Virus record (IMG/VR): IMGVR_UViG_3300029265_000645
Location: 1-27,948 of that record
Strand: one strand, 5' to 3'
Length of the DNA: 27,948 nt
Origin: a virus
The notes under the pieces were generated by a model. The model was not told the DNA's origin, made no database searches, and saw nothing but the letters and a program-made list of their open reading frames with translations. How positions within the stretch are numbered: the stretch's first letter is position 1; every line of letters starts with the position of its first letter. The position numbers and the translations under genes are program-made. This document shows positions 10,829 to 24,422 of this stretch, one piece after another.

Positions 10829-11123
10829 TTGTGTAACTTTTAATGTTTGTTTCTATTAATTTAAATTTCTCGATTATTTGATCTAGGTCATTTGTTTCTC
10901 TATTATGTAGAGAGTTTTTTGCTATATACTCCAACGCCATACCTAGATCAGCATAATAACTTTGGGGTTTTGCATACTCTTTGATATTCCCTTTAGACCT
11001 AAAATGATCTTGATTGGGAATAACCCGTTCATTAACGGTGTAACAATTATCATCTTTAGTGATAAAATACGGTTCTAAACGTGGATCCTCGATCTTTGTT
11101 AGACTTTTAGCTTTTCTTGCCAT
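10806..11123 (-). CDS. Phage protein of unknown function leading the GroES-GroEL operon
   Basis: This 105-residue soluble protein begins with a basic segment (MARKAKSLTKIEDPRLEPYF), then CYTVNERVIPNQDHF, and ends in a helical region (LDQIIEKFKLIETNIKSY). I recognise no family. It is the first gene after the promoter element at 11151-11160 and overlaps groES by 23 bases, so all four genes of the chaperone unit are probably co-expressed. It could be a phage substrate or partner of the chaperonin, but that is only positional inference. Confidence 0.65.
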   Translation of the reverse strand: MARKAKSLTKIEDPRLEPYFITKDDNCYTVNERVIPNQDHFRSKGNIKEYAKPQSYYADLGMALEYIAKNSLHNRETNDLDQIIEKFKLIETNIKSYTNEIRSTI

Positions 11124-11150
11124 ATAACTTTTATTATTTTATGTTACGTA

Positions 11151-11160
11151 AATATACGAA
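11151..11160 (-). promoter_or_regulatory. TTCGTATATT promoter element for the chaperone operon
   Basis: The coding strand reads CTTTCGTATATTTACGTAACAT in a true intergenic gap, 27 bases before the first ATG of the GroES/GroEL unit. The same element and spacing appear at 23789-23798 (27 bases) and 25594-25603 (29 bases). No clear -35 box is shared, as would fit a late-type phage promoter that depends mainly on a -10 element. Confidence 0.68.
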
Positions 11161-11197
11161 AGAAACATCGCTAGGACACGCTTTTCTTAAATTACCT

Positions 11198-11623
11198 TTA
11201 TTTTATTTTAATAGACTTTGGTTTAGCTTCATCAGCTAAGGGAATAAAGATTGTCAATAAACCATTAAGCATTTCTGCTTCAGTAATTGATAAATCAAAT
11301 TTAGGAGCTATCTTATATCTTAAGTCAAAAGATTTTTTAGATAGACCATGATAAATATAACCTTCAAAATCATCTCCTTTATCTTCAGATTTTTTATAGG
11401 TTATTTCTAAAACATCCCCTTCGATATTAAGGATAACATCTTTTTTAGTTAGCCCAGTACAGGCAACTTCAAAATGAAGTCCTATGTCATCATAGAAAAT
11501 ATTAAGTGGGTGTGGTTGTTTGGAATTTAATGCTGGTGCGAATTTCTCCTCAGCATTGAAGTGATTCTTAAATAGAATGTCGAAAGGACTTAAGTGCCTC
11601 TCTAATAGTTGTAATGTACTCAT
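11198..11623 (-). CDS. Hsp20-family small heat shock protein
   Basis: This 141-residue protein has an alpha-crystallin domain spanning roughly residues 38-132. It includes LHFEVACTGLTKKDVILNIEGDVLEITYKK, the conserved L-x-I-x-I-P-type strand (LNGLLTIFIP) and a C-terminal I-x-I motif (SIKIK) used in oligomer assembly. Such proteins hold unfolding proteins for refolding by ATP-dependent chaperones. Its own TTCGTATATT element lies 86 bases upstream, followed by a leader with a stable UUCG-loop hairpin. Small heat shock proteins are also found in T4-like cyanophages, so a viral copy is not unusual. With GroES and GroEL next to it, the phage carries a three-part folding cassette. Confidence 0.9.
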   Translation of the reverse strand: MSTLQLLERHLSPFDILFKNHFNAEEKFAPALNSKQPHPLNIFYDDIGLHFEVACTGLTKKDVILNIEGDVLEITYKKSEDKGDDFEGYIYHGLSKKSFDLRYKIAPKFDLSITEAEMLNGLLTIFIPLADEAKPKSIKIK

Positions 11624-11739: not shown

Positions 11740-12414
11740 TTATTCTGCATCAAAGAAAAACATTTGCCATAATCTTCCTGATTCTATATCATGACCAAAA
11801 TAGTCTTGAGCTGCATGAATTGAATGTGCATCAAATATTACTAATCTGTTATATACATTACCTGCTACATCAACATTTTCGTAAGGATGTGGATCAACAA
11901 ATGTGTGTTGGTTAAAAGCATTATCAATAGTAAGCACACTACCATCTTCTTGTTTAATTTGGTCGTGACTATGTCTAACCTTAGTTTCTTTATGTTGCAT
12001 TAACCTTGTTCCTGAAGATACTGGAGCATTTGGTGTTAAATAAATCATACCAGCCCATAATTGTTGGTCACAATGATAAACTAAAGAAGTACCAGCTATT
12101 GCTGATTGGAATCTACCGTTCATTCCATACTCTTCCCACATTTTTTGTCCAGTAATTTTTAGACCCATTATTTTTTCAAATTCCTCTTTTACACCATCAA
12201 AGAAATGTTGTTTTCTAGTACGCATACCTAAGTATCCTGGATCATCAAAATAATATTGTTTTAAGGCATATGCTCTAAGTGCATCTGGATCTTCATAAAA
12301 ATTATCTACTACCCATAATCTAGTATCAGGTTTTTTACTTACTTTAAATTCATTCGAATGTATTTGTCCATAAGGACTATCTGAATTACTATCTGTTTTT
12401 TTAATTTTGCTCAT
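11740..12414 (-). CDS. 2OG-Fe(II) oxygenase-like protein, copy 1
   Basis: This 224-residue protein starts TRLWVVDNFYEDPDALRAYAL. It has a YHCDQQLWAGMIYLTPNAPVSSGTRLMQHKET region and ends FDAHSIHAAQDYFGHDIESGRLWQMFFFD. H114 and D116 form the HxD iron pair, H200 is the likely third ligand, and R214 the likely 2-oxoglutarate contact. It shares its whole layout with the protein at 23835-24422, including the LTPxAP and HAAxxYFG segments, so the two are paralogs. The substrate is unknown; protein, sugar or nucleobase hydroxylation are all possible. It lies 9 bases after the sliding clamp gene. Confidence 0.76.
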   Translation of the reverse strand: MSKIKKTDSNSDSPYGQIHSNEFKVSKKPDTRLWVVDNFYEDPDALRAYALKQYYFDDPGYLGMRTRKQHFFDGVKEEFEKIMGLKITGQKMWEEYGMNGRFQSAIAGTSLVYHCDQQLWAGMIYLTPNAPVSSGTRLMQHKETKVRHSHDQIKQEDGSVLTIDNAFNQHTFVDPHPYENVDVAGNVYNRLVIFDAHSIHAAQDYFGHDIESGRLWQMFFFDAE

Positions 12415-13185: not shown

Positions 13186-14163
13186 TTAAATTTCAAAGGA
13201 ATTTAATGAATTAATGTAAGGATTTAAATCTAAAGACCATTCTAAATCGCTAAAAAATCCTTCTAATTTGTTTAATAGAATTGACTCAAATACTTTCTTT
13301 CTATCAGCATATTGATTTAAGAATTCCTGTACTTTAGCTGGTATTTCGTGATCAAAAAATGCTAAACCATCTATTTTATATGGATTTTCTCTTAAATGAA
13401 TCCATTTGATTTTATCTGCATTAGTCATTAAAGGGTATTTTTTGTCTAATTGCCACAATTTTAATAAATCATTATATCTAATTGCTGCTTTAACAGGTGC
13501 AGGTGCTCCTAATTGCCTTTGAGCTTTACCTTCTTTCTTTTTACTTAATGGTTTAAGAATCTCAGTAAATATTTCTCCTGCTCTAGTATTTCTACCTTGA
13601 TACTTATCTATTTTATTAATTCTAGTTGGATTACCTAATTTAGTTAGTGGGATTGTACCATCTAATATTTTTTCTTTAAATACTTTAACTTGCTCAAGGA
13701 TACTGTCTTTCTGCTCACCCTTTAAAACTTGTTGTAAAATATCATTAAAAAACTCCCCTAAAATAGGCGGGAAATTAGCTTTCATAAACTCTAAACCTTT
13801 AATGTCTAGTGTTTCTTTATCAACTCCTTCTTGTTTTGTAATCCATTGAGCATAACGTCTAGTTGCTCTAAAATAAGCTGAACGTATAACACATTCAGTT
13901 TTCATTTCTAATCTATGTGTTTTAACATTAAATGCTTCACGTGCTAGTCTATCATAATCTTCATTAATAACATCTTGGTACTTTAATGCTACCTTTTCTA
14001 AAATATCATCCTTTTCCTTATCTGTAAATTCTTCAAAATTAGGATATAGATGCATTAACAGAGGTTCGGCATTAAAATAATTCGAATCTGTGTCTACATA
14101 GGCACAAAGATTTGTATCTTTCTCATCGCAAATCCACCATGGAGTATCTTGTAAGTGCTTCAT
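13186..14163 (-). CDS. Family B DNA polymerase, C-terminal fragment (gp43-like)
   Basis: This 325-residue protein begins only 20 residues before motif C (AYVDTDSNYF; catalytic D24 and D26), which should sit deep inside a family B polymerase. The rest fits the palm and thumb, including RRYAQWITKQEGVD and KLGNPTRINKI. Exonuclease, motif A and motif B are missing here but are present in the product of 14957-16702. The two must assemble to give an active enzyme. The C terminus (SLNSFEI) is hydrophobic and acidic like a clamp-binding tail. It has its own ATG, four bases into the end of the preceding gene (ATGA overlap), so this is a true separate gene rather than a frameshift. Confidence 0.88.
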   Translation of the reverse strand: MKHLQDTPWWICDEKDTNLCAYVDTDSNYFNAEPLLMHLYPNFEEFTDKEKDDILEKVALKYQDVINEDYDRLAREAFNVKTHRLEMKTECVIRSAYFRATRRYAQWITKQEGVDKETLDIKGLEFMKANFPPILGEFFNDILQQVLKGEQKDSILEQVKVFKEKILDGTIPLTKLGNPTRINKIDKYQGRNTRAGEIFTEILKPLSKKKEGKAQRQLGAPAPVKAAIRYNDLLKLWQLDKKYPLMTNADKIKWIHLRENPYKIDGLAFFDHEIPAKVQEFLNQYADRKKVFESILLNKLEGFFSDLEWSLDLNPYINSLNSFEI

Positions 14164-14528
14164 CTATATTCTTTTACGTCTTTAAAATTTGATCCCGATA
14201 TAATGTTAATGTCATTCTTTAATTGACTTCTAACTTCATTATATGTAAATATCATTCTTGATGATTTTCTAAATTCTTTATCACTTATGCTTTTATCTCT
14301 AACTTTATTTTCGAGATCCCATAATATACGATTTACTTTAGCCAACTCCAAATATAATACTTTAATTTCTTTACCATTTTTTGTAAATAAATCTATAACA
14401 CCCTGATTTAATTTTAAAAATTCAACTTCAACATTAGCTAGATTATCGGGATTTACCATATTTAGTTTTTTTATTTCTAAAATTGATACTCTATCTAATA
14501 ATTCTCCGTGTGAAATTTCTATTTTCAT
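14160..14528 (-). CDS. DUF6165-like small protein
   Basis: This 122-residue helical protein starts MKIEISHGELLDRVSILEIKKLNM and continues NVEVEFLKLNQGV. This resembles DUF6165 proteins, which begin with a V/I-S-x-GELxDKxxILEIK segment and usually accompany glycosyltransferase and surface polysaccharide genes. Its function is not known to me. It lies between the two halves of the DNA polymerase, linked by ATGA overlaps on both sides. An imperfect copy of the repeated motif (14323-14331, TCGTATATT) lies within it and may drive the polymerase C fragment and clamp. Confidence 0.62.
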   Translation of the reverse strand: MKIEISHGELLDRVSILEIKKLNMVNPDNLANVEVEFLKLNQGVIDLFTKNGKEIKVLYLELAKVNRILWDLENKVRDKSISDKEFRKSSRMIFTYNEVRSQLKNDINIISGSNFKDVKEYR

Positions 14529-14683
14529 GCTATAATTATTAAAAATGGTACAGCTAATACAGTTAGACCTAATAAGATTCTAGTTAAAGGTTTCTGTTCC
14601 CAGTGATTTTCATAAACTATTAAATGAAATAGAAATGACAAAGGTAAACAGAGTAGTATTAAAAGTGTTTCTAGTATATTCAT
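14525..14683 (-). CDS. Small membrane protein with two helices
   Basis: This 52-residue protein starts MNILETLLILLCLPLSFLFH, has a polar turn with NHWEQKP, and then a second hydrophobic helix, RILLGLTVLAVPFLIIIA. It should be an inner-membrane hairpin. The ATG lies one base after the stop of the gene upstream, and the stop overlaps the next ATG (ATGA). The clean hydrophobicity and coupling on both sides support a real gene. I recognise no function; phages often carry such small membrane proteins. Confidence 0.68.
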   Translation of the reverse strand: MNILETLLILLCLPLSFLFHLIVYENHWEQKPLTRILLGLTVLAVPFLIIIA

Positions 14684-14684
14684 A

Positions 14685-14960
14685 TTAAAATGTTCTTTCT
14701 CCTGGTAATGGTGGGACTTTTACTGGTTTTTCTCCTTTAGAATTAACATCGTTTCTTTCTTTTACTTCTACTTTATACTTAACCCCAGCAACTTTAAAGT
14801 TACCTCCTTGTTTAAGCATTTTTTTAAAGAAGTTGGTTTGAACGTCATTCCATTCTTCACTTCTAGTTATCAGTTCTTCTTTAGTAAGGGGTTTTTCTTC
14901 ATTACCAATAACCTCTGTAACTGTCTGGTTGCTTCTAATAGATTGTTTTTTTAATGTCAT
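14685..14960 (-). CDS. Small phage protein of unknown function between polymerase halves
   Basis: This 91-residue, polar and basic protein has a helical middle (TKEELITRSEEWNDVQTNFFKKMLKQGG), a short strand-rich stretch (FKVAGVKYKVEVKER) and a proline-rich tail (KVPPLPGERTF). I see no endonuclease motif such as GIY-YIG, LAGLIDADG or HNH. This matters because a homing endonuclease would be the expected cause of a split polymerase gene. It overlaps the end of the polymerase N fragment by 4 bases. Confidence 0.68.
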   Translation of the reverse strand: MTLKKQSIRSNQTVTEVIGNEEKPLTKEELITRSEEWNDVQTNFFKKMLKQGGNFKVAGVKYKVEVKERNDVNSKGEKPVKVPPLPGERTF

Positions 14961-16702
14961 ATTTCTAGTTTAATCTCGTTACGTAATACTTTATTCATAT
15001 GCCTGTTAGCACATAATGCACTTTCTTGAATAATTCTATGCCCTGATAATGTAATAGCTCTACTAATCATGTATTTAGGTAAACCATACCTAAAGGTAGG
15101 CAAAGCAGTAGCTCCATATAAGGAGTTAAGTAAAATCTTCATTGTATATTGCATTAGATGGTAATGTTCCCCTTCTGTTTTGTTACCTTCTTTAAATGCT
15201 TTCTTCATTTTATTTTTATATATAACCCTTTCATCAAACCAAATATTTAAAACTGTTGCTAATACCGATTCTTTGTCTTGAGTAAAGAAACACCCATTAG
15301 CTGATACAGCTAAGTTGTCCTGTTCAATCATTGATATTAATTTTTCAGTACTAACATATGTTTGTCTACCTTTTGAATTTTCAACTAATAATTCTTCCTC
15401 AGGATCGCGTTCTTTTAAGTCGTTAAGGCCCAAGCGATTATTACGGTCATCTGATGTTACGATATGTCCCACCAAAGTTTCTCGGCCTATGTTAATAGAC
15501 ATAATTATACATGGATACAGCGATGTTAAATCCTCATCAAACATATACTTGTATAATCCCGCTTTAGGACAAAATAAATAACCCCCAGCATAAGTTGAAT
15601 CTAGATCTTTTTTACCAGATGGTCTATAAGGTGGAATTATGTTTTGAGATAACAAATAAGCAGATATTGCTCCATCTTGAGTAACACTATTAGAATATAC
15701 TTCGCTGTAATTATGTTTACCTTTATGTGAAATGTTTTTAGTTAAAGCAATATATTGGAGTTTTTCATCTAATAACTTTAATATCTTAACATCCATAAAG
15801 TTATATTCAATAAACTTATGAATATCAGTTTCAAATAATCTATCTAAATTACCTTCATATTCAATTTTATTTACACCCGCATATTTTTCTCCAATGGCAT
15901 CTAATTTATAACTAGGTTCATCTTTCCAACTATACTTTTTATGTAAACGAATATAATCTAAAGATTCAACCCCAACAATGTCTACAAATTGGTCTCTTTT
16001 AGCCCAAGCTGATATCCATTTACCTTCTTTTGTTTTAAACCAGGATTTTTTCTCGGTTTTAACCTTACCTATAGGAGATAAATAACTAGCAAATTCTTCC
16101 CCTAATACATTACAAATTCTATAATATAAATAAGGAATATCAAAATAATCACTATTATAACCTATTAAAATATCAGGATTAATATCTCTAAAACATTCTA
16201 TAAACTTACCTAGTAATTCTTTTTCGGTTTTTACAGGTATGATTTCTTTGTTTTTATTTTCACCTGTTTTAGTGTGAGATAATACATTTTTTTTATCTAA
16301 AACTAATATCGCCCAATGGTCTTCGGTTTTATCCCACCAAGCTATAGAAGTAATAGGCATTGGTGCACTTTCGATATATTCTTTTGTTAATGCACCTCCT
16401 ATTTCACACTCAATATCAAAAAATAATTCTTTATGTCCAGTAGAAGGCTCATCATTTACCCCATATTTTTCTATTAGAAATTTTTGGTGTGGTTTTATAT
16501 CATGAAAATGTAAATCTGGATCACTTCTGTACCATTGGTTTGTTTTGGTTAGTGTTTCACCCTTTAAACCAACTAATTTACCATTAGGGTCTTCTTTATA
16601 TGCAGTATTCCACCATTCAATTTCATCATATCCTCCTTCATCCCACAAATGGATTTTGTATTTATTTTCCTTTATTTTAGTTGCGTAACATTTTTTATAC
16701 AT
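14957..16702 (-). CDS. Family B DNA polymerase, N-terminal fragment (gp43-like)
   Basis: This 581-residue protein carries the proofreading exonuclease motifs Exo I (FFDIECE, 95-100), Exo II (GYNSDYFDIPYL, 181-192) and Exo III (YNFMD, 300-304). It also has polymerase motif A (DLTSLYPCII, 391-400) and motif B (KILLNSLYGAT, 522-532). It stops about 50 residues after motif B, before motif C, which is supplied by the gene at 13186-14163. It should be the replicative polymerase of the phage together with that fragment. The break falls in the palm between motifs B and C. The ATG overlaps the stop of a tiny upstream gene. Confidence 0.92.
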   Translation of the reverse strand: MYKKCYATKIKENKYKIHLWDEGGYDEIEWWNTAYKEDPNGKLVGLKGETLTKTNQWYRSDPDLHFHDIKPHQKFLIEKYGVNDEPSTGHKELFFDIECEIGGALTKEYIESAPMPITSIAWWDKTEDHWAILVLDKKNVLSHTKTGENKNKEIIPVKTEKELLGKFIECFRDINPDILIGYNSDYFDIPYLYYRICNVLGEEFASYLSPIGKVKTEKKSWFKTKEGKWISAWAKRDQFVDIVGVESLDYIRLHKKYSWKDEPSYKLDAIGEKYAGVNKIEYEGNLDRLFETDIHKFIEYNFMDVKILKLLDEKLQYIALTKNISHKGKHNYSEVYSNSVTQDGAISAYLLSQNIIPPYRPSGKKDLDSTYAGGYLFCPKAGLYKYMFDEDLTSLYPCIIMSINIGRETLVGHIVTSDDRNNRLGLNDLKERDPEEELLVENSKGRQTYVSTEKLISMIEQDNLAVSANGCFFTQDKESVLATVLNIWFDERVIYKNKMKKAFKEGNKTEGEHYHLMQYTMKILLNSLYGATALPTFRYGLPKYMISRAITLSGHRIIQESALCANRHMNKVLRNEIKLEI

Positions 16703-16797
16703 TAAATATCTTTTTCACGTTTAAATATGTCATGGAATAAATCCATTATAGCATACATTAAAGCCATACCCATTGCAATACCTATAAATATTTCCAT
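16702..16797 (-). CDS. Very small single-helix membrane protein
   Basis: This 31-residue protein has one hydrophobic helix (MEIFIGIAMGMALMYAIM) followed by a charged end (DLFHDIFKREKDI). It is joined by TAATG one-base overlaps both to the MazG-like gene before it and to the polymerase gene after it. Overlapping start and stop codons on both sides are the main evidence that it is translated. No function is evident. Confidence 0.6.
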   Translation of the reverse strand: MEIFIGIAMGMALMYAIMDLFHDIFKREKDI

Positions 16798-17354
16798 TAT
16801 ATTATTGTTTCAACCTCATAAAACCTTTGTAATTCCTCATCACTAAAGAACTGATGTAAATCCGGTCTGTAGTAATTAATGTTTTTCATTACTTTTTTGT
16901 CTCTTGTTCTATAGACAATAAACCGTCCTTCCTCAAGTTTCTCAAAATGACACTCCTCACCTTGCTCCTTACTTCTTTGGCTGACGGTGAGTATGGCTTC
17001 TTCTTCAGTCTTGCAAGCTTTAGACATATTAGATCCTTGTACTTCTTGATAGGCTGGCCATATCTTATCCTTAAGGCCATGTAACATAGTACCGTTCCCA
17101 AGGGAAACATAAGTAATGTCGCACAAAGCATCCAGAACTTCCACAATGTCGCCTCGTTCGCAAGCTTCTCTATATTCTTCAAGTTCTTCGAGTATGAAAT
17201 CGTAAACAAACTGCCATTCTTTTTTTTCTGGGATTGTTGGATCATAATTATTAGGTTTGCCAAATGTGGCGTTAAAAGTCTCTACTTCATCTACAAATGG
17301 TACTCCATTAACCCATGTAGGTAATTCTTCTTCTTCAAATAATTTATATTGCAT
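16797..17354 (-). CDS. MazG-like nucleotide pyrophosphohydrolase
   Basis: This 185-residue protein contains the E-E-x-x-E-x(n)-D-x-x-x-D core of the all-alpha NTP pyrophosphohydrolases: FILEELEEYREA with E56, E57, E59 and E60, then VLDALCDITYVSLG with D75 and D79. EVQGSNMSKACK follows, as in phosphoribosyl-ATP pyrophosphohydrolase-like phage proteins. It would hydrolyse nucleoside triphosphates to monophosphates, cleaning or adjusting the nucleotide pool. A C-terminal 65-residue extension is less conserved. It lies 5 bases after the phosphoribosyltransferase gene, suggesting a nucleotide-metabolism pair. Confidence 0.8.
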   Translation of the reverse strand: MQYKLFEEEELPTWVNGVPFVDEVETFNATFGKPNNYDPTIPEKKEWQFVYDFILEELEEYREACERGDIVEVLDALCDITYVSLGNGTMLHGLKDKIWPAYQEVQGSNMSKACKTEEEAILTVSQRSKEQGEECHFEKLEEGRFIVYRTRDKKVMKNINYYRPDLHQFFSDEELQRFYEVETII

Positions 17355-17359
17355 AACTT

Positions 17360-17752
17360 TTATTTTAAGTAATCTTGTATTGTTTCACTATCTTCTCTTT
17401 CCCATGGATAAACTATCCAATCGTTTTCTAATACCGTAGTAGCAAATATATGAGGTCTATAACAAGCTAATATTTTATGATGTAAAACAGCATGATAAAC
17501 TCCAGGTGCCTCAGATAATGTTTTTCCTGAGTCGCAAATATCATCTACTACTAATGTATTTCTACCTATTGCTTGTACATAAGGTAAATCTAATTTATGA
17601 GATATTAATACGGCGGGTATTAATCCACCTCTAGCTATCCCATGTACAGAATCTATATTAGGATAATCACTAATTATTCTTTCAGCTACGATATCAACTA
17701 GACTATTAATATCATTCCAACTTAAATATATTTTAGATGTTGTGTCCCCCAT
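17360..17752 (-). CDS. Phosphoribosyltransferase, purine salvage type
   Basis: This 130-residue type I phosphoribosyltransferase has a conserved DSVHGIARGGLIPAVLISHKL segment. It also has the PRPP-binding loop TLVVDDICDSGKTL at 66-79 and WIVYPWERED near the end. The last resembles the base-side tail of xanthine/guanine phosphoribosyltransferases. It likely forms purine nucleotides from free bases and PRPP. It overlaps folE by 20 bases. A role in recycling guanine or a deazaguanine-like base freed by DpdA-type exchange is an attractive idea, but nothing in the sequence proves it. Confidence 0.8.
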   Translation of the reverse strand: MGDTTSKIYLSWNDINSLVDIVAERIISDYPNIDSVHGIARGGLIPAVLISHKLDLPYVQAIGRNTLVVDDICDSGKTLSEAPGVYHAVLHHKILACYRPHIFATTVLENDWIVYPWEREDSETIQDYLK

Positions 17753-18425
17753 TGTTTATTTTTAATGAATCAAAAAACTCTTTACGAGCTAAATTATCGT
17801 TTTGTTTAAATACACCATTTGCTTTAGTTGTAACCATTGCAGCTCCTTTATGTTTTACTCCTCTACAAGAAACACAATTGTGTGTTCCTACTATAGTAAT
17901 AATAACACCTAAATTACCATCTGTAATTTTATTTACAGCATTATGTATTGCTGATGTTAACTGTTCTTGTATTGCTCCTCTTCTACCAAATAATTCTACT
18001 ATTCTATTTAGTTTAGATAAACCAATAACTTGACCATCTGCTCCTGCTATATATCCTATATGAACAACTCCCCCAATTGTTTGATGATGATGAGAACACA
18101 TTGAATTTAACGGTATATTACGTTCTATAACAATGCCATCATAACCATCTGATGGAAATGATGTAATTGGAGACATTGCTGTGTATCTACCAGCCCATAA
18201 ATCGTTCACATAAGCTTTAGCTACACGTCTTGGTGTTTCGTTTGAATTTGGATCATTTTTCCAATCACATTTTAATGCATCTAAAAACTTACCAAAAGCT
18301 TCAGTTGCATCTTCTATCATGTATTGTTTATCTTGATCGGATAATGGAAAACCTTTGGCGACACCATTTGCAAAACCTTCTTGTACTACTTCTAATTCCT
18401 CGTGAATTTTTCTACGTTTGTTCAT
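17733..18425 (-). CDS. folE: GTP cyclohydrolase I
   Basis: This 230-residue protein has the family hallmarks. C110 and H113 lie in NSMCSHHHQTIGGVVHIGY, C184 in THNCVSCRGV, and these supply the active-site zinc. VIGLSKLNRIVELFGRRGAIQEQLT is the conserved helix. It converts GTP to dihydroneopterin triphosphate, the first step to 7-deazaguanines. All zinc ligands are present, in contrast to the QueC and QueD encoded nearby. It fits as the entry enzyme for a phage-made preQ0-type base. Its ATG overlaps the end of a small upstream gene by about 14 bases; the copy of the repeated motif at 18521 lies 95 bases upstream. Confidence 0.93.
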   Translation of the reverse strand: MNKRRKIHEELEVVQEGFANGVAKGFPLSDQDKQYMIEDATEAFGKFLDALKCDWKNDPNSNETPRRVAKAYVNDLWAGRYTAMSPITSFPSDGYDGIVIERNIPLNSMCSHHHQTIGGVVHIGYIAGADGQVIGLSKLNRIVELFGRRGAIQEQLTSAIHNAVNKITDGNLGVIITIVGTHNCVSCRGVKHKGAAMVTTKANGVFKQNDNLARKEFFDSLKINNGGHNI

Positions 18426-18549
18426 TTATATAACTTTTTAATTTATCTATTAATAATAACACATCATCTGGGTCCATTGTAATAGCACAGCATGTGTTTA
18501 CATTTTCCTCTATATCGTCCAATATACGAAGGGCTTCTGGCTTTTCCAA
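18412..18549 (-). CDS. Small acidic protein of unknown function, TTG start
   Basis: An open frame of 45 codons fills the gap between the oxygenase and folE. From a TTG at 18549 it reads LEKPEALRILDDIEENVNTCCAITMDPDDVLLLIDKLKSYINEQT in sections, with helix-like patterns at both ends and two adjacent cysteines. The composition looks like real protein rather than noncoding DNA. The oxygenase stop lies one codon before, in the same frame. An internal ATG would give only about 16 residues. It overlaps folE by 14 bases. Start and expression are uncertain. Confidence 0.5.
   Translation of the reverse strand: MEKPEALRILDDIEENVNTCCAITMDPDDVLLLIDKLKSYINEQT
18521..18530 (-). promoter_or_regulatory. TTCGTATATT element upstream of folE
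   Basis: The coding strand reads CCCTTCGTATATTGGACG, about 95 bases before folE. It lies inside the small open frame at 18412-18549 and may be partly coding. It could drive folE, the phosphoribosyltransferase and the MazG-like gene. Confidence 0.45.
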
Positions 18550-18552
18550 ATG

Positions 18553-19173
18553 TTAGCTTGTAAATTCTAACCAAGTAGTTAAAATATATTTATCACTAGA
18601 TTCAGGCATATATCCTTTATGTATATAAGGCCAACTAGCAGGATGAATAATTAACTTACCAATTTCAGGTTTAACTTTAAAAAAATCGTCTGCTCCCTTT
18701 TCTTTAAATAAAAACCCAGTTTCACCACCTTTTTTAACAGTATTTAAATAAAGGATAAAAACAAATAATCTTCTTGAAGTATTTACATCTTCTTTTTCTA
18801 CGTGCCAAGCATTATAATGTCCTTCATTTTTGTCGTACTTTTGAATTTGTAAAAGAGGATAGGAACATTTACCATTTACTAAAAAATGATGGTCAAATAT
18901 ATCACGATGGGGGTATTTTTCTAAGTAACCATCAGATAAAGTTTTATTAAAACCATTCATTACCATACTAGATAAACTAGCATTGCCTGTACCTGGGCTG
19001 TGTAAGATTTCGTAATCTTTAGTTTTTTTAATCTTGGTGTCTATACCTGCCCCACTTGTTCCTATTATAGTATTATTTAGATCATTTTCATAATCAAACT
19101 TACTAATTAGGGAGTTGCACTCACTTTCTGTAAATGCGTTTGGGAAAATTCCTATTGTATCTTTAAATTCCAT
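18553..19173 (-). CDS. 2OG-Fe(II) oxygenase (prolyl 4-hydroxylase-like), copy 2
   Basis: From the ATG at 19173 the protein has 206 residues. The core LQIQKYDKNEGHYNAWHVE gives an H124-x-E126 iron pair in place of the more common HxD. RRLFVFILYLNTVKKGGETGF is the conserved strand region, and KLIIHPASWPYIHKGYMP supplies H185, with K195 or nearby as the likely 2-oxoglutarate contact. This matches P4H-type phage oxygenases rather than the LTPxAP type of the other two copies. A longer frame from 19197 would overlap the zinc-ribbon gene. The substrate is unknown. It sits between QueE and FolE, so a role in tailoring a modified base is a possibility worth testing. Confidence 0.8.
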   Translation of the reverse strand: MEFKDTIGIFPNAFTESECNSLISKFDYENDLNNTIIGTSGAGIDTKIKKTKDYEILHSPGTGNASLSSMVMNGFNKTLSDGYLEKYPHRDIFDHHFLVNGKCSYPLLQIQKYDKNEGHYNAWHVEKEDVNTSRRLFVFILYLNTVKKGGETGFLFKEKGADDFFKVKPEIGKLIIHPASWPYIHKGYMPESSDKYILTTWLEFTS

Positions 19174-19279
19174 GTTTTGTTTTTTTACAACTTCCACAAG
19201 TTTTTCTATACCCTGCGTTTAAAGACCCACATGAGCAAGTCCAAGCTGTATCTGTTAATTTTTTTCCTTTTTCTCTCAT
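19163..19279 (-). CDS. Zinc-ribbon micro-protein
   Basis: This 38-residue protein has an N-terminal basic stretch (MREKGKKLTDTAW), then TCSCGSLNAGYRKTCGSCKKTKHGI. The C-x-C and C-x2-C pairs (four cysteines, 13 residues apart) match a zinc ribbon. Its ATG overlaps the queE stop by one base (TAATG), and its stop overlaps the next ATG. It is absent from simple length-based gene calls, but the motif is clear. It could bind nucleic acid or a partner enzyme of the modification cluster. Confidence 0.7.
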   Translation of the reverse strand: MREKGKKLTDTAWTCSCGSLNAGYRKTCGSCKKTKHGI

Positions 19280-20064
19280 TAAACTTCTCTCTGATCTTCA
19301 AATGCAATGATATGAGGTCTCCATGTCATTCTATACCCATTATCTCTTACCCAATCGAATACTACTGGGTATGATTTAAATAATGATTCTCTTGAATCAC
19401 CTGCGGGCATAAACCATACTTTTTCAGGTTTAACCTCTAATATAGAAATACATTCCATAATTTCAGCTAACGCTCCTTCATCTTTACCATCCCATACTGG
19501 TTTAATATGATAATCTGAATGGTATTCAATAGATTGTTTTATTGCTTCATAATTAAGCCTAAGCTTATTATGTCTATCAATCATTCTTTGGTCTGTAATT
19601 GCTCCTTGAGGAGTAGATACCCCAAGCACAGGTACACTATTGGAGAACTTAGGACTAATAGAAAGCAAATTAATAGGATAATCAGTTGGTAGAAAATGGC
19701 TTCCTTCAGTTTCGATAGTAATAAAAATATCTTTTTCATGAGCAAAATGTGTTAATTCATTTACTAAAGCAGGATGCATAGTAGGTGAACCACCTGTAAG
19801 CATCATCTCTTTTATATGAGGGTTATCTTCATACGCTTTAATAATGTCTTTAAAATTAAAATGTCCTTTTTCTGGATGGATACTTGTATACCAACTATCA
19901 CACCAGCCTCCTTCTCCAAAGAAACATCTATGAGTACACCCTGTAGTTCTAATAACTACTGTAGGGTAACCGGCTCTTGATCCTTCTGATTGTACTGCTG
20001 TGTAGATTTCTACGATTGGAAGATTCTTTTCGTAGTCTGTAACCCTTTTTAATTGTTTGTGCAT
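19279..20064 (-). CDS. queE: QueE-like 7-carboxy-7-deazaguanine synthase
   Basis: From the ATG at 20064 the radical SAM protein has 261 residues. It contains IVEIYTAVQSEGSRAGYPTVVIRTTGC, with cysteines C43, C47 and C55 (spacing CX3CX7C) that should bind the Fe4-S4 cluster. LTGGSPTMHP is the SAM-binding region equivalent to GGEP. It would convert 6-carboxy-tetrahydropterin to 7-carboxy-7-deazaguanine. The CX3CX7C spacing differs from the canonical CxxxCxxC and from the long-loop forms, showing a special insert, FFGEGGW. The longer frame from 20202 lacks homology in the first 46 residues and overlaps queD. Confidence 0.87.
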   Translation of the reverse strand: MHKQLKRVTDYEKNLPIVEIYTAVQSEGSRAGYPTVVIRTTGCTHRCFFGEGGWCDSWYTSIHPEKGHFNFKDIIKAYEDNPHIKEMMLTGGSPTMHPALVNELTHFAHEKDIFITIETEGSHFLPTDYPINLLSISPKFSNSVPVLGVSTPQGAITDQRMIDRHNKLRLNYEAIKQSIEYHSDYHIKPVWDGKDEGALAEIMECISILEVKPEKVWFMPAGDSRESLFKSYPVVFDWVRDNGYRMTWRPHIIAFEDQREV

Positions 20065-20107
20065 ATTGTTAATTTTTTTGAGTGGTTTTTCATTCACTAT
20101 TATATAA

Positions 20108-20572
20108 CTACTCGCAGTAATATGCTGCGTTTTTACCATGTTCCATGAATTTAACTTTTGTAACTTTAACTCTGCCTTCAGTTTCAGTTGTAACAAATTC
20201 ATTCAACTTATTATAAATATATTCAGCAAATTTTTCAGCGCCAGTTGCGGGTAGTATTCTTACTTGAGCTACATTTGCATCTCCCATTTGTTTAAATGCC
20301 GCTAAAAAGGGATCATCTTCTGCTACTATTATAGTATGATCAAACATATAATCCATCCATGCTTTTGGAGACATATCATCTATTTTGGTTTTAGCCCTTT
20401 TCATTCCTCCAAAATCCCAAACCCAATTTCTATGATCTAATTCCCCCTCAAAATATACTTTAAAAGAAATTCCATAACCATGTATAAATTTACAATGTGT
20501 ATCTTCTGCTTTCCATTGACGAAACACTGTACTAAAACCGTCAAAAATTTTACTTGATTGATGTTTACCCAT
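20108..20572 (-). CDS. queD: QueD-like 6-carboxy-tetrahydropterin synthase with altered zinc site
   Basis: From the ATG at 20572 the protein has 154 residues. It has the T-fold features VWDFGGMKRAK, FDHTIIVAEDDP (D78, H79), LPATGAEKFAEYIYNKL and a C-terminal glutamate (E144), plus the catalytic-type cysteine in THCKFIHGYG (C27). In canonical QueD the zinc histidines are in F-x-A-A-H and L-H-G-H. Here the first aligns with F17 and the last with Y33, leaving only H31. The enzyme would normally form 6-carboxy-tetrahydropterin from dihydroneopterin triphosphate. Whether it binds zinc in another way (for example through H26) is unclear. It overlaps the thioredoxin gene by 8 bases. Confidence 0.82.
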   Translation of the reverse strand: MGKHQSSKIFDGFSTVFRQWKAEDTHCKFIHGYGISFKVYFEGELDHRNWVWDFGGMKRAKTKIDDMSPKAWMDYMFDHTIIVAEDDPFLAAFKQMGDANVAQVRILPATGAEKFAEYIYNKLNEFVTTETEGRVKVTKVKFMEHGKNAAYYCE

Positions 20573-20807
20573 TATACCATGATTTAATTTGTTCCAATGG
20601 AAGAGCACCTGTTATTCTACTAAGTTCATTTCCACTACTATCTACTTTAACTAAGGTAGGAACATTTCTAATACCATATTTTGTTGATAGTTCCTGATCA
20701 GTGTCAACATTAATTTTTTGGTATGGAAGACCACTTTTTTCCATTATGGGTCCTAACATTTTACATGGTCCACACCAATTTGCTGAAAAATAATAAATTT
20801 TATTCAT
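20565..20807 (-). CDS. Thioredoxin
   Basis: This 80-residue thioredoxin-fold protein has the active site SANWCGPCKMLGP (C12 and C15) followed by INVDTDQELSTKYGIRNVPTLV with the conserved cis-proline. It lacks the first strand and helix of full-length thioredoxin, so it is a short phage form. It could supply reducing power to phage enzymes such as ribonucleotide reductase or support radical SAM chemistry. It overlaps queD by 8 bases and follows a small membrane protein, placing it inside the deazaguanine operon. Confidence 0.9.
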   Translation of the reverse strand: MNKIYYFSANWCGPCKMLGPIMEKSGLPYQKINVDTDQELSTKYGIRNVPTLVKVDSSGNELSRITGALPLEQIKSWYNG

Positions 20808-20823
20808 ATTTAATTTTTAATTG

Positions 20824-20988
20824 TTATACTAATTCTTCTCCTATACCTACTACTTCGCTCAATATAAGTAAAATAACTGCGATATCCAAGCTAAACCATA
20901 AGGCTCCATAACCTAATAGGCGGATTGCTGATTTAACGAAACTAATTTGTTGATGTTTTTTAGCATCTGGTAATTGTTGTTTTTTCAT
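20824..20988 (-). CDS. Small membrane protein
   Basis: From the ATG at 20988 the protein has 54 residues: a basic start (MKKQQLPDAKKHQQ), a short amphipathic helix (ISFVKSAIRLLGYG) and a hydrophobic helix (ALWFSLDIAVILLILSEVVG). The same open frame continues upstream through the tRNA gene to 21060, which cannot be coding, so the start at 20988 is preferred. Similar small proteins seem common in marine phages, from memory. The function is unknown. Confidence 0.7.
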   Translation of the reverse strand: MKKQQLPDAKKHQQISFVKSAIRLLGYGALWFSLDIAVILLILSEVVGIGEELV

Positions 20989-21002
20989 GTATAAATATTT
21001 AG

Positions 21003-21075
21003 TTGTCCCGCTAGGTCTCGAACCTAGACTCTTCTGCACCAAAAGCAGACGTGTTACCAATTACACCACAGGACA
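21003..21075 (-). tRNA. tRNA-Gln (anticodon TTG)
   Basis: The minus strand folds as a full cloverleaf. The acceptor stem is TGTCCTG with CGGGACA. The D arm contains AATTGGTAAC. The anticodon stem TCTGC/GCAGA has the 7-base loop TTTTGGT with anticodon TTG. The T arm is CTAGG-TTCGAGA-CCTAG. The discriminator base is A and CCA is not encoded. It decodes CAA. It lies between a secreted protein gene and the small membrane protein gene, inside the operon, and may supplement the host pool for an A+T-rich phage. Confidence 0.95.
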
Positions 21076-21083
21076 TTTAATTG

Positions 21084-21458
21084 TTAAAAACTAACGTAAT
21101 TGCTTACTTTAGTAAATATCCAAGCTTTTCCTGGTCCTCCTTCACTATCAGGTTTACTTACAATTAATTGTAACCCCTTAAGGTAAAATAGTAATCTATA
21201 TTTTTCATCAATTTTCTGAACATAGATGTATTTTTCCTCTAAATAGAAATTACCACTAACATAATTCCCTAATCCATCATATCTAACAAATTCATTAGGG
21301 GCTTTACCATCTAGGTATTTCATCTGCAAAATTTGATTTCCATCATAACTCTGCCAAGTACCATAAATATCATCCCCTCCTGGGTTTCCAATTCTTTTTG
21401 TTTGAGAATAAGAATTAAATGTTAACAATAAAGTTAATAATATAATTAGTTTTTTCAT
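21084..21458 (-). CDS. Secreted protein of unknown function
   Basis: This 124-residue protein has a clear signal peptide (KKLIILLTLLLTFNSYSQ), ending in the Tyr-Ser-Gln that is typical of Bacteroidetes exports. The mature part is strand-rich and contains DDIYGTWQSYDGN, FVRYDGLGNYVSGNFYLEEKY and KGLQLIVSKPDS. The GTW segment recalls lipocalin-like proteins but this is weak. It should act in the periplasm or outside the cell. It is odd to find it between QueC and the tRNA. It may alter the host envelope, perhaps in superinfection exclusion. Confidence 0.68.
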   Translation of the reverse strand: MKKLIILLTLLLTFNSYSQTKRIGNPGGDDIYGTWQSYDGNQILQMKYLDGKAPNEFVRYDGLGNYVSGNFYLEEKYIYVQKIDEKYRLLFYLKGLQLIVSKPDSEGGPGKAWIFTKVSNYVSF

Positions 21459-21462
21459 AATA

Positions 21463-22290
21463 TTAGTCTAAAGATTTAATTGCTACGTGATCTGTTAATA
21501 CACCCTCAACATGAGATCTAGCTACTTCATAATCCACTGGTCCACTTTCGTCTTCATATTGAACGGGATCTTTCCTACCCAAAGTAATAAATGCTTCAAT
21601 TCGTTCAACAGACGAAGCAGATTTATAATCACTATTCCCACTAGGAAAAGGTTTATAAGAAGTGTTAGTTCTAGAATAAACTTCATCGAATCCAATAAAT
21701 AATCTTTCACATAATGTAAGTCCATCTTTTAATATACCTAATTTGTCTGTTAATAAATATGGAGTAAAATAACCCACTCTTTCATGCTCCCAATTACCTT
21801 CTCTAAAGGCTTTATCATCTGCATCTCTAAATTCTTGTCTACAATCAGGATAAACAGCATGATCTCCAGCATGTATTCCTAAAGCAATATCACAATTTTC
21901 TTCTGTTCTATTTGCTATTGATAATGCTACTGCTTGAGTAATAGAAGCAAATATTTTATTTCTGTTAGGCACAACAGTTTCTTTCATGTTATCGTTTTCA
22001 TAATGTCCTTCTGGTACATCATCTCCACCATCAACTAATGCAGAATCTAATAAATCAGCTAACCCATCTAATTTGATTTGTCGATAATTAACTTTATGTC
22101 CTTTATCTGCTAGGTAATCTACTAACTGTTGAGCTCTTTCTAATTCTACTCGATGTTTTTGACCGTAATCAAAAGAAATACCTGTTACTGTATCATACTC
22201 AGTTAATGCTCTTAGTAATAGTGTTGAAGAATCCATTCCTCCACTTAATGAAACTACACAATGTTTTTTTGCCATAGATAATTTTGCCAT
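21463..22290 (-). CDS. queC: QueC-like 7-cyano-7-deazaguanine synthase lacking the zinc cysteines
   Basis: This 275-residue ATP-PPase has the SGGMDSS loop at 16-22, ISFDYGQKHRVEL, VVPNRNKIF at 107-114 and HAGDHAVYPDCRQEF, all family features. QueC normally converts 7-carboxy-7-deazaguanine to preQ0 through an amide. The C-terminal zinc motif (TWxCY...CGxCxxC) is missing its metal ligands. Here the region reads TNTSYKPFPSGNSDYKSASS, with S211, D221, S224 and S227 at the four cysteine positions, while ERIEAFITLGRKDP that follows is conserved. The fold is kept but the metal site is not. It ends 4 bases before the next gene, in the same transcript as DpdA. Confidence 0.88.
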   Translation of the reverse strand: MAKLSMAKKHCVVSLSGGMDSSTLLLRALTEYDTVTGISFDYGQKHRVELERAQQLVDYLADKGHKVNYRQIKLDGLADLLDSALVDGGDDVPEGHYENDNMKETVVPNRNKIFASITQAVALSIANRTEENCDIALGIHAGDHAVYPDCRQEFRDADDKAFREGNWEHERVGYFTPYLLTDKLGILKDGLTLCERLFIGFDEVYSRTNTSYKPFPSGNSDYKSASSVERIEAFITLGRKDPVQYEDESGPVDYEVARSHVEGVLTDHVAIKSLD

Positions 22291-22331
22291 AATTTATTTT
22301 ATTAATTTTTGCCAGGTATTTTGCGTATAGG

Positions 22332-23141
22332 CTAACGCTTGTAAATGTCTATTGGTTTATAATTATTAATTTCTCTAAATCTATTTGTATTATGAACAAC
22401 ATTCAAGTAATCAACTTTTTCATAATCAATTTTATAAAAATCATTCATGTTTGCTTTTGGTTTATTATTTAAACCATTATCCTTATACCAAATTCCTTCT
22501 AATGCCGCCATTACTGGGTTTGAAGTATCAATTGATTCTATTCTAGGGTCATTATCATACCAACCAAATTCTTGGGGTATCGAACAACCTAGTAAATGAA
22601 ATTTAGTATCTTTTAATTCACTTAAGTTTAATAATCCCTGTACAAACCGTACTCTACCTAATGCCTTCCCCATATCAGTATTAGTATGTGGGAAAAAATC
22701 ATTATACCAAGTAGCACCATAAGATACACATAATTTTTCATAACCTAATCCCACTAGTAGATTAGCACATAAATATGCTTGATTTTTATTTTCCCCTTGA
22801 ATTACAGCAGTAATTTTAGTTTTTTTAGGGTATTTAAATTGTCTCCAGTATTTAGCTTGGGCTGCTGTACTACCACAACTCATCCAAACATCTGGTACTA
22901 TAAATTCATCAGGTTCTAATTCTGTAATCCAATGTAGTAATCTTTCACTATTATATGCTTTCCCTAATTCATGAAGTGAATTATCCATAATAACATATCT
23001 ACCTTTATCTCTAGCATCTATAAAATATTGTTTATATTCTTCATCTATATCTAATAAATGAGGTAAACAATAATCATAATCATTGAACTCAGAGGATGCT
23101 GATAAAAGACATCTTGGTACTTCGTGTGATATTTTAGGCAT
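22332..23141 (-). CDS. DpdA-like DNA 7-deazaguanine transglycosylase (TGT fold)
   Basis: This 269-residue protein resembles phage DpdA, a relative of tRNA-guanine transglycosylase. GRYVIMDNSLHELGK carries D53 in the position of the TGT general base. PDEFIVPDVWM gives D84, TAVIQGENK follows, then KLCVSYG and FHLLGCSIPQEF. RIESIDTSNPVMAAL carries D205 where TGT has its nucleophile. The family swaps guanine in DNA for a 7-deazaguanine base. The zinc motif of bacterial TGT is absent. It overlaps the AT-hook protein gene by 8 bases and is followed by queC. Exchange of bases in phage DNA is inferred from homology and context. Confidence 0.75.
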   Translation of the reverse strand: MPKISHEVPRCLLSASSEFNDYDYCLPHLLDIDEEYKQYFIDARDKGRYVIMDNSLHELGKAYNSERLLHWITELEPDEFIVPDVWMSCGSTAAQAKYWRQFKYPKKTKITAVIQGENKNQAYLCANLLVGLGYEKLCVSYGATWYNDFFPHTNTDMGKALGRVRFVQGLLNLSELKDTKFHLLGCSIPQEFGWYDNDPRIESIDTSNPVMAALEGIWYKDNGLNNKPKANMNDFYKIDYEKVDYLNVVHNTNRFREINNYKPIDIYKR

Positions 23142-23634
23142 ATTTTTTTGGTCGTCCTCTACGAGAGACTTTAATTTGTTTACTGTATTTATCTTCGATA
23201 ATATAATAAAGATCTATCAGTTCTCCACTGCATTTTAAACATTCTTCTACAGTTTGTTCTTTTGTAATGTCAAAATGTTTAACAAAATGAGCATATAATG
23301 ATTCTAATCTAGATATTTCATCTTTTTCATAATCTTCCCACAATCTTTTACGACGAGCTTTGAGCATTGCTCCTTTTTCGTTGAATTTTGCTATATCATA
23401 GTCACACTCTACTTCTAATTCATTTAACATATATTCACATAAATACGCTTGCCACCCAAAACAAGACCCATCAAAATCACCATTAAATATTTTATCTCTA
23501 AAGCTAGACTTATAAGGTAATGGTTTATTTTTTGCTTCGTACCAACGCCACCACATAAATCTATTATAGTTTAATGGTTGATAGTTTTTTAGGCGTCTTT
23601 CAATGGTAGATTTTTTATGAGGTATATTAAACAT
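23134..23634 (-). CDS. Phage protein with a C-terminal AT-hook-like motif
   Basis: This 166-residue soluble, charged protein starts IERRLKNYQPLNYNRFMWWRWYEAKNKPLP. It has a helical middle (KRLWEDYEKDEISRLESLYAHFVKHF) and ends in SRRGRPKKYA. The GRP core flanked by basic residues is the AT-hook DNA-binding motif. I do not recognise the rest. It overlaps DpdA by 8 bases and the small membrane protein upstream by 8 bases. A role as a DNA-binding partner that guides base exchange is inferred from position and the motif only. Confidence 0.68.
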   Translation of the reverse strand: MFNIPHKKSTIERRLKNYQPLNYNRFMWWRWYEAKNKPLPYKSSFRDKIFNGDFDGSCFGWQAYLCEYMLNELEVECDYDIAKFNEKGAMLKARRKRLWEDYEKDEISRLESLYAHFVKHFDITKEQTVEECLKCSGELIDLYYIIEDKYSKQIKVSRRGRPKKYA

Positions 23635-23761
23635 TTCCTTCTAGTATTGCTGCTAGAACAATCATAACATAACCAAAACCAAATATGGTTAAAGTTGTTA
23701 TAAAGTTAGCTAATGCTCCTATTGGATTTTCCTTGACTAAATCGTAAAATTCTTTGATCAT
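23627..23761 (-). CDS. Small membrane protein heading the deazaguanine operon
   Basis: This 44-residue protein starts MIKEFYDLVKENPIGALANF and continues as one long hydrophobic helix (ITTLTIFGFGYVMIVLAAIL). A TTCGTATATT element ends 27 bases before its ATG in a true intergenic gap. Its stop overlaps the start of the AT-hook gene. This position makes it the first gene of the DpdA-QueC transcript. It is too short for routine calls but well supported by composition and position. The function is unknown. Confidence 0.66.
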   Translation of the reverse strand: MIKEFYDLVKENPIGALANFITTLTIFGFGYVMIVLAAILEGNV

Positions 23762-23834: not shown

Positions 23835-24422
23835 TTATTGGGTGTTGAAGAAAAATGTTTGGTGTAGTCTACAATATTCAGGACCAAAACCAAAGTATTG
23901 TACTGCAGCATGATAATAATCTCCATAATAAATTACAGCTCTATTGTATACGTTTGCTATATAATCTATTTGTTCCCAACGAGTAAAATCTTGACCATCT
24001 GATGCTATAGTCTCATGTAATTCCTTATTAAGAGTGCCATCTTTAAGTAGTGGTGGTTTGATTAATCCTGTTTCTTTATGTCTATAAATTCCAGTACCGG
24101 TTTCTATTGGAGCATCTGGTGTTAAATATATTACACATGCATATGTTGTGTAATTATCTGAATGTACCCAGCATTTATCTAAGGCAGTGCATAAATTAAA
24201 ACAACCATTAGGAGTAGTAGGATCATTGTAAGCCTCATGGTCTATTTTTTGATTTAAAGCATTTTCAAATGCTGCTAGAACTGATGGGTCTTTAACTGAT
24301 TCTGTTCTTTTTCCAGGATGATTACCTTTTTTATCATACCATTCCATATTTAAGGCTTCTTGCCTAACGAAATCTGGATCTGAATAAAAATCATCTAATA
24401 TTATTAAACTTTGTCTTGACAT
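23835..24422 (-). CDS. 2OG-Fe(II) oxygenase-like protein, copy 3
   Basis: This 195-residue protein is a paralog of the 11740-12414 protein. It starts SLIILDDFYSDPDFVRQEALNM, has CWVHSDNYTTYACVIYLTPDAPIETGTGIYRHKETG, and ends YGDYYHAAVQYFGFGPEYCRLHQTFFF. H87 and D89 are the likely HxD pair, H171 the third ligand and R185 the 2-oxoglutarate contact. The protein is 29 residues shorter at the N terminus. It is the last gene before the promoter at 23789. The substrate is unknown. Confidence 0.76.
   Translation of the reverse strand: MSRQSLIILDDFYSDPDFVRQEALNMEWYDKKGNHPGKRTESVKDPSVLAAFENALNQKIDHEAYNDPTTPNGCFNLCTALDKCWVHSDNYTTYACVIYLTPDAPIETGTGIYRHKETGLIKPPLLKDGTLNKELHETIASDGQDFTRWEQIDYIANVYNRAVIYYGDYYHAAVQYFGFGPEYCRLHQTFFFNTQ

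Follow-up and report, generated by a model that had tools for sequence, protein, structure and literature searches.

The window considered here is the complete 27,948-base IMG/VR virus record IMGVR_UViG_3300029265_000645, in which a cluster of genes, with all pathway members on the minus strand, is predicted to make a 7-deazaguanine and to place it in phage DNA by means of a DpdA-type enzyme resembling tRNA-guanine transglycosylases (TGT). In the order of transcription, the cluster runs from an open reading frame (ORF) of 166 amino acids (aa) (23134-23634) through the TGT-like gene, queC, a small ORF which we take to be lipoprotein-like, a tRNA-Gln (UUG), the thioredoxin gene (trx) and queD, and then through queE, a 2-oxoglutarate (2OG) oxygenase gene, folE, a phosphoribosyltransferase (PRTase) gene and a MazG-like gene to a family-B DNA polymerase gene. 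The features are as follows, the 7-deazaguanine intermediates being abbreviated CDG (7-carboxy-7-deazaguanine) and ADG (7-amido-7-deazaguanine).

22332..23141, minus strand: putative DpdA-type DNA-guanine transglycosylase (TGT-like, 269 aa), assigned from its predicted structure, its structural match 7ui4 and its relatives
21463..22290, minus strand: queC without the zinc motif (275 aa; PF06508, 128.5 bits)
20108..20572, minus strand: queD of the FRQ/HGY type (PTPS PF01242, 54.7 bits; PHROG QueD, 1e-39)
19279..20064, minus strand: queE, radical SAM CDG synthase (PHROG QueE, 6.3e-53; Pfam Radical_SAM, 28.6 bits)
17733..18425, minus strand: folE, GTP cyclohydrolase I (PF01227, 142.5 bits; cut-off 27)
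17360..17752, minus strand: guanine PRTase resembling xanthine-guanine phosphoribosyltransferase (XGPRT; PF00156, 31.2 bits; NCBIfam xanthine PRT, 8e-13)
16797..17354, minus strand: MazG/PRA-PH-like nucleotide pyrophosphohydrolase (PF01503, 40.8 bits; in 55/55 loci)
20565..20807, minus strand: thioredoxin, trx (PF00085, 51.5 bits; in 53/55 loci)
18553..19197, minus strand: 2OG-Fe(II) oxygenase, P4H-like (PF13640, 37.1 bits; in 4/48 distinct loci)
21002..21075, minus strand: tRNA-Gln (UUG) within the cluster (ARAGORN)
14957..16702, minus strand: first half of the family-B DNA polymerase, closing the conserved block (phrog_262, 2e-104)

A preliminary description of this DNA, made from its letters, had recognized FolE, QueD, QueE and QueC in one orientation with a TGT-like protein, and the Pfam, PHROGs and NCBIfam families, together with the fold, bear this out; the NCBIfam scores of all four enzymes lie under the curated cut-offs, and the Pfam score of QueE is about one bit under its cut-off of 29.5. 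Relatives set the start of QueD at 20572, which makes it shorter than the longest ORF, and relatives of about 261 aa set that of QueE at 20064 (residue 47 of the listed ORF). The same description had read the context as a single program on the strength of gene overlaps and one promoter element. The overlaps stand, with 20 nt shared by folE and the PRTase gene, 8 nt by the 166-aa ORF and dpdA, and a further 8 nt by trx and queD, provided that queD begins where it does in relatives. The promoter was rejected as evidence of one program, since 52 sigma-70-like sites, against 46.2 ± 6.9 in shuffled sequences, are no excess.

Scans of viral contigs yielded at least 130 related loci, 115 of them with distinct dpdA DNA, which are a sample of the relatives and not their full total. 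Among the 55 IMG/VR loci that span dpdA to the polymerase (the latter being present in all by selection, as loci were chosen to reach both genes), queC, queD, queE and mazG occur in every one, folE in 49 and the XGPRT-like gene in 48; the detected core genes lie on a single strand, and the full nine-gene order of the window recurs in 33. The gene cluster is thus not a product of chance, given these four genes in 55/55 loci and the shared strand. The thioredoxin gene, kept in 53 of the 55, adjoins queD in the commonest gene orders. Two genes count as passengers: the 2OG oxygenase is found in just 4, and the lipoprotein-like ORF in just 3, of 48 distinct loci, and the oxygenase was accordingly ruled out as a core part of the modification.

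The protein encoded at 22332-23141 is, by its predicted model, a member of the TGT/DpdA fold. An AlphaFold2 model built from 35 family members has a mean predicted local distance difference test (pLDDT) score of 90.2, and Foldseek against the PDB ranks 7ui4, the DNA preQ0 insertase DpdA, at the top (E 1.5e-6) and then tRNA TGTs, all entries from rank 1 to rank 34 being DpdA or TGT. Comparison with DpdA structures had been proposed earlier as a check, and it found the TGT fold: VIA-align superposes 229 residues on 7ui4 at 3.3 Å with Z 16.2, the tRNA TGTs being tied at 15.6-16.1. Residues D53, N54, D84, Q115, G185 and D205 are invariant across 17 diverse relatives, and the model places D53, D84 and D205 on strands or directly behind them; some of these may correspond to the catalytic aspartates that TGTs carry at strand ends (D102 and D280 of the Z. 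mobilis enzyme). At the level of sequence, NCBIfam and PADLOC gave no match to this protein, Pfam gave a single sub-threshold match to DUF6610 (E 0.01, 15.9 bits; cut-off 27), and the PHROGs match is to phrog_19058 (5e-42), of unknown function. A profile search for TGT relatives returned designed TIM barrels as its best matches and 7ui4 at just E 0.44, so that membership of the DpdA/TGT family is argued from fold and not from sequence. Out of 50,697 phage records searched by sequence, 29 match the protein; these include 14 Campylobacter phage records (36-38% identity, 95% coverage, E 1e-39 to 4e-38), in which the protein bears no annotation, four records of the Flavobacterium phage immuto (34% identity), annotated as DNA guanine transglycosylase, and weak matches in Bacillus, Weizmannia and Cellulophaga phages. 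The protein probably falls in the group labelled DpdA3, which Cui et al. in 2023 reportedly named for complete guanine replacement in such phages. The Campylobacter phage group is described as highly modified with dADG (PMC6884629).

We consider it probable, at roughly two chances in three, that this is a phage DNA-modification operon in which a 7-deazaguanine is made, placed in DNA by DpdA, and the expelled guanine recycled by the PRTase. The route from GTP to a 7-deazaguanine inserted by a DpdA-type enzyme, already proposed in the preliminary description, is supported by the enzyme families, the fold and the conserved gene order. Judged from sequences and models, the enzyme families, the predicted TGT/DpdA fold, the conserved block and a constant guanine-type PRTase of one of two families are in place; from these we infer the modified base, its extent in DNA and the recycling step, which would work as follows. 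FolE, QueD, QueE and QueC would convert GTP to a 7-deazaguanine in the form of the free base, which would be ADG (the amide) or preQ0 (the nitrile). Once the phage DNA is replicated, the DpdA-type enzyme would exchange guanine for this base, probably at a large share of the sites, such that restriction enzymes would no longer recognize the DNA. Each swap would free one guanine, which the PRTase would join to phosphoribosyl pyrophosphate (PRPP) to give GMP, and host kinases would then restore GTP for DNA precursors and for FolE. The guanine PRTase in the cluster, the loss of zinc sites in QueC and QueD, and the link of DpdA to a Campylobacter phage protein are observations that go beyond the earlier description.

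The window PRTase belongs to an XGPRT-like family, its NCBIfam xanthine PRT match being under the curated cut-off. Across 11 sequences D70, D71, D74, T78, W112, P116 and W117 are invariant and K93 is nearly so; by analogy with E. coli Gpt, we take these to form the PRPP motif and the pocket for the 6-oxopurine. A guanine-type PRTase lies between queE and mazG in all 65 complete loci (62 from IMG/VR and three on contigs of metagenome-assembled genomes (MAGs), one of them immuto-like), with 54 of the XGPRT type and 11 of the hypoxanthine-guanine phosphoribosyltransferase (HGPRT) type. When only the XGPRT profile was used, the count stood at 57/63 loci, and four weak matches to that profile are the same HGPRT ORFs. 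Two long contigs of relatives entered the PRTase searches only. Three HGPRT-type proteins that were tested score 128-141 bits with NCBIfam HGPRTase, under its cut-off of 150. On a DpdA tree (56 distinct proteins, with two loci skipped, seven duplicates merged and CP220 added; some branches weakly supported), the PRTase type requires at least four changes and the FolE type five. In the 50,697 phage records the window PRTase has 22 matches, one of which is an unverified contig of 4 kb whose genes look bacterial; six phages opened among the remaining 21 all carry genes of the 7-deazaguanine pathway. In one Stenotrophomonas and one Pseudomonas phage a protein of 297 aa begins with the PRTase domain and continues as FolE over residues 118-296. 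In both, this fusion belongs to a QueE-QueC-QueD cluster, after which the Stenotrophomonas phage has a protein annotated as queuine transglycosylase that resembles that of the Mycobacterium phage Tres (32% over 177 residues). The Brevundimonas phage MaInes has a xanthine PRT (XPRT) directly after FolE, with a deoxynucleoside monophosphate (dNMP) kinase and a ribonucleotide reductase adjoining folE. NCBIfam sees the fused PRTase domain weakly as XPRT (4e-4). An HGPRT query matched 18 phage records, of which 15 are unannotated, one is a Salmonella contig and two come from Acinetobacter and carry hpt; going by names alone, we take most of these to be bacterial DNA.

Guanine is a substrate common to XGPRT and HGPRT. 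Since one of these two guanine PRTases is always kept, and since one is fused to FolE elsewhere, guanine recycling fits better than the formation of a nucleotide from the finished base. The PRTase would thus act on the guanine that DpdA expels, and its place in the block looks obligate. Among openly licensed papers, as far as their available text goes, we found none asking what becomes of that guanine.

QueC is the second unusual member of the pathway. According to a 2026 family survey, canonical QueC (cluster 1 of PF06508) carries SGGxDS, YxQxHxxE, VPxRN and YPDC, together with a Tyr of the zinc region that is essential and the motif C(x)8CxxCxxC, and zinc, treated there as a hallmark, is required (PMC13329287). 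The window protein scores 126.5 bits with NCBIfam, under the QueC cut-off of 150, and adopts the QueC fold in its model (pLDDT 83.2; 3bl5, Z 18.8). It has all four signature motifs and, by alignment, the essential Tyr, and its zinc motif is gone, the four Cys being aligned with Ser, Asp, Ser and Ser. It is not fused to a glutaminase (275 aa, covering only positions 142-361 of the PHROG profile). Among 51 full-length distinct family members, the signature motifs occur in 49 and the zinc motif in two; over 115 loci with QueC, 103 QueCs are zinc-less, two are zinc-type (L061 and L062) and 10 could not be assigned, several being truncated. In these two loci (L061, 7462-8199; L062, 5757-6494) a zinc-type QueC, about 30% identical, replaces the zinc-less one within the block, and that of L061 is without exact YPDC and YxQxHxxE, yet scores 173 bits against the same cut-off. 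As a DNA pattern with no mismatch allowed, the zinc-less motif was found in 1/395 Bacteroidota and 1/200 Pseudomonadota genomes, both MAGs already carrying a phage contig. The enzyme presumably works without zinc.

In QueD the catalytic Cys is conserved (alignment of 22 sequences), and two of the three zinc histidines, located by reference to E. coli QueD, are replaced in the window protein. The resulting HGY occurs in 71 of 74 family members, the pattern missing three; the loss is shared with immuto, phiST and phiSM, and not with CP220, Skure, Tres or the Stenotrophomonas phage. Apart from the MAGs with phage contigs, G052 and G054, no QueD like that of the window was found in 61 Bacteroidota, 60 Pseudomonadota or 115 genomes of the class of G054; one 35% match in a Pseudomonadota genome (G539) has HGH. 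Bacterial FRQ..HGY QueDs may nonetheless exist. A second FRQ/HGY QueD-like gene, 51% identical, lies on another contig of the Flavobacteriales MAG G052 (L189, G052 C86). The cluster loop of QueE, CX3CX7C, has a variant spacing and is present in 35/35 sequences. FolE keeps its zinc ligands, the motifs CSHH and HxCxxCRG being found in 39/39 sequences. FolE itself is present in 59 of the 65 complete queE-mazG loci and replaced in the other six (L051, L062, L068, L080, L096 and L127) by FolE2 (GTP cyclohydrolase IB), which NCBIfam confirms in the five loci tested, L068 being assigned by similarity only.

A wider reading, which we put forward tentatively and with a little less than even confidence, is that heavy 7-deazaguanine modification runs as a closed guanine cycle, in which the PRTase would be obligate, its XGPRT and HGPRT forms interchangeable and sometimes fused to FolE, and that in this marine lineage the pathway may also have shed zinc (QueC, QueD and, in some, FolE2). 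Because FolE keeps its zinc ligands in all 39 sequences, zinc sparing as a pathway-wide adaptation is kept only within that wider reading.

Relatives of the DpdA-type protein were found on contigs of 10 MAGs, with labels ranging from Flavobacteriaceae to Pelagibacter, Legionellales, Acidimicrobiaceae and an archaeon, and no host is claimed for the virus. In the family of G052 (52 genomes), the sole full-length QueC match lies on the phage contig of G052. Of the 51 remaining genomes, 34 have weak partial matches and 17 have none, the best single match among these genomes being 23.2 bits (cut-off 22), or 26.9 in one together with its neighbours. As no full-length QueC lies outside that phage contig, this putative host family may lack preQ0 synthesis.

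Several rival explanations have to be weighed, together with the points that tell against the operon with guanine recycling itself. The PRTase might instead make a nucleotide of the 7-deazaguanine, which would, in part or wholly, enter DNA through the polymerase as a deoxynucleoside triphosphate (dNTP), with DpdA only completing or correcting the pattern; the presence of the PRTase, MazG and DNA polymerase in one block, and of the PRTase, dNMP kinase and ribonucleotide reductase beside folE in MaInes, would agree with this. We regard it as decidedly unlikely, given that DpdA is present, that the two alternating PRTase families share guanine as their substrate, and that the fusion partner is FolE, the first enzyme, and not QueC, the last; moreover, inactivation of dpdA in CAjan abolishes all modification (PMC6884629). 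It is unlikely, though to a lesser degree, that the PRTase belongs to the general nucleotide salvage of large phages and stands in the block by chance, as the presence in that block of trx and MazG, both nucleotide-metabolism genes, might suggest. Against chance stand its rarity (22/50,697 phage records, with all six phages opened carrying the pathway), the switching of its type while its position stays, and its fusion to FolE. Nevertheless, a number of observations weaken the case for recycling. As synteny extends over the entire block and takes in the polymerase, a conserved PRTase would by itself prove no link, and the weight of its tie to the pathway rests on the family switches and the FolE fusion. 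PF00156 misses both the fused PRTase domain and the CP220 PRTase, the latter being a match close to the threshold (E 9e-4) in which Arg takes the place of the pocket Lys, and the HGPRT call of L172 is based on 34% identity to the query. PF00156 finds nothing in Skure, a CAjan relative, or in Tres, a Rosebush relative, and neither phage belongs to the 22 records that match the window PRTase; CAjan replaces about 32% and Rosebush about 28% of G (PMC6884629), so that a PRTase would not be needed at 28-32% replacement.

That the TGT-like protein modifies tRNA in the manner of queuosine synthesis, the cluster serving translation and not DNA, has very little probability in our view. The fold and the tie of tRNA TGTs with DpdA in Z, the tRNA gene within the cluster, and the finding of weak partial QueC matches, at most, in one putative host family (51 genomes besides G052) would all be compatible with it. 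The top-ranked structural match, however, is the DNA enzyme 7ui4; the sequence relatives are the Campylobacter phage protein and the annotated DNA guanine transglycosylase of immuto; the phage tRNA, being Gln-UUG without G34, is not a TGT or queuine substrate; and QueF was found in 0/47 contigs, though a host could supply one. A further possibility, less probable than not but carrying more weight than the others, is that the zinc-less QueC stops at ADG or couples CDG to another amine, which would make the base in DNA dADG or a new amide. All four zinc Cys are replaced throughout the QueC family, zinc is described as required in the survey (PMC13329287), and dADG is the base of the Campylobacter group, whose DpdA is homologous (PMC6884629). 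On the other side, the catalytic signature motifs are kept, as is the Tyr aligned with the position whose mutation kills E. coli QueC (PMC13329287); the QueC of Campylobacter phage WX1 keeps the zinc Cys and has FPDC/YGSNH, and zinc loss therefore does not track dADG; and immuto pairs a zinc-less QueC with a QueF match, which suggests that preQ0 is made there unless supplied by the host. Zinc loss as the cause of dADG was consequently dropped as unsupported, the four Cys of WX1 QueC being in place.

Within the recycling operon, the product is most likely ADG or preQ0. The preliminary description had noted no QueF in the window, and this holds well beyond it: none was found in 47 relatives' contigs, some of them 119-164 kb and possibly incomplete, whereas immuto and phiSM have matches and CP220 has none. 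This argues that the product is not preQ1. ADG would be favoured by the Campylobacter relatives of DpdA, and preQ0 by the QueC pocket and by immuto. A formyltransferase was likewise absent from 16 relatives' contigs, with a match in immuto and none in CP220. Three points qualify the choice of product. No QueF or formyltransferase appeared in the searched relatives, the search not having covered ArcS or separate amidotransferases; DpdA does not fix the product, since both dADG (CP220-like) and preQ1 (immuto-like) chemistry go with homologous DpdAs; and the activity of the window QueC could be altered, because it lacks the zinc that is called required (PMC13329287).

Among known systems, the CP220-type dADG system of Campylobacter Firehammervirus shares with the window a homologous short DpdA, with QueD and PRTase in CP220 and QueC in WX1; the DpdA homologue, QueD and PRTase are scattered in CP220, whereas they form one block in the window, and WX1 QueC retains the zinc Cys with FPDC/YGSNH, in contrast to the zinc-less protein with a canonical pocket seen here. 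The Flavobacterium phage vB_FspM_immuto likewise has QueD, QueE, PRTase, FolE, a MazG-like protein and DpdA in one region, and a zinc-less QueC that is 68% identical (tblastn), but its polymerase is of family A, its queC lies outside the cluster, and it encodes QueF and a formyltransferase, neither of which was found in the searched relatives of the window. Seuratvirus CAjan and Rosebush, which carry dPreQ0 (group 2 of PMC6884629), similarly combine FolE, QueD, QueE and QueC with DpdA and have no amidotransferase. Their DpdA is of another type: profile comparison of the window protein with the Stenotrophomonas phage TGT-like protein, which resembles that of Tres, gave no match. Skure and Tres differ further in a zinc-type QueC and in having no PRTase match. 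The Cellulophaga phage phiST resembles the window in a distantly homologous DpdA (hhalign probability 97.7%), an HGY-type QueD and MazG, with a PRTase elsewhere, and differs in that no QueC is annotated in the two regions viewed. The QueC-like defence enzymes Cap9 and QatC have the same fold as the window QueC (Z 16.9-18.1) and keep the zinc-Cys motif that it has lost (PMC13329287), whereas QatC has lost the signature motifs that it keeps.

The pathway is of a known kind among phage 7-deazaguanine systems, and what appears new, on the evidence of sequence, is that a DpdA of the Campylobacter phage type occurs together with a zinc-less QueC and with a guanine PRTase. If most guanines of a large genome are replaced, the expulsion of one guanine per site is a real drain, and a PRTase that holds its position, changes family and in other phages is joined to FolE suggests a testable answer to the fate of that guanine. 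The window QueC, which has all the catalytic motifs without a zinc site, bears on the role of zinc. Together, the PRTase and the zinc-less QueC give access to the questions of how extensive replacement comes about and what base enters the DNA.

Elsewhere in the window, the family-B DNA polymerase at 13186-16702 is divided between two ORFs, of 581 and 325 aa, which are separated by two small ones. It is likewise in two ORFs in all 16 relatives that show both halves, some of which are cut by the end of the locus, and the reading frames of the halves overlap in L025, L027, L110 and L117. The far-apart regions 11740-12414 and 23835-24422 encode related proteins of phrog_1644, named minor coat protein, and 8820-11623 encodes a phage GroEL adjoined by genes which we take, from their sequence, to be GroES-like and Hsp20-like.

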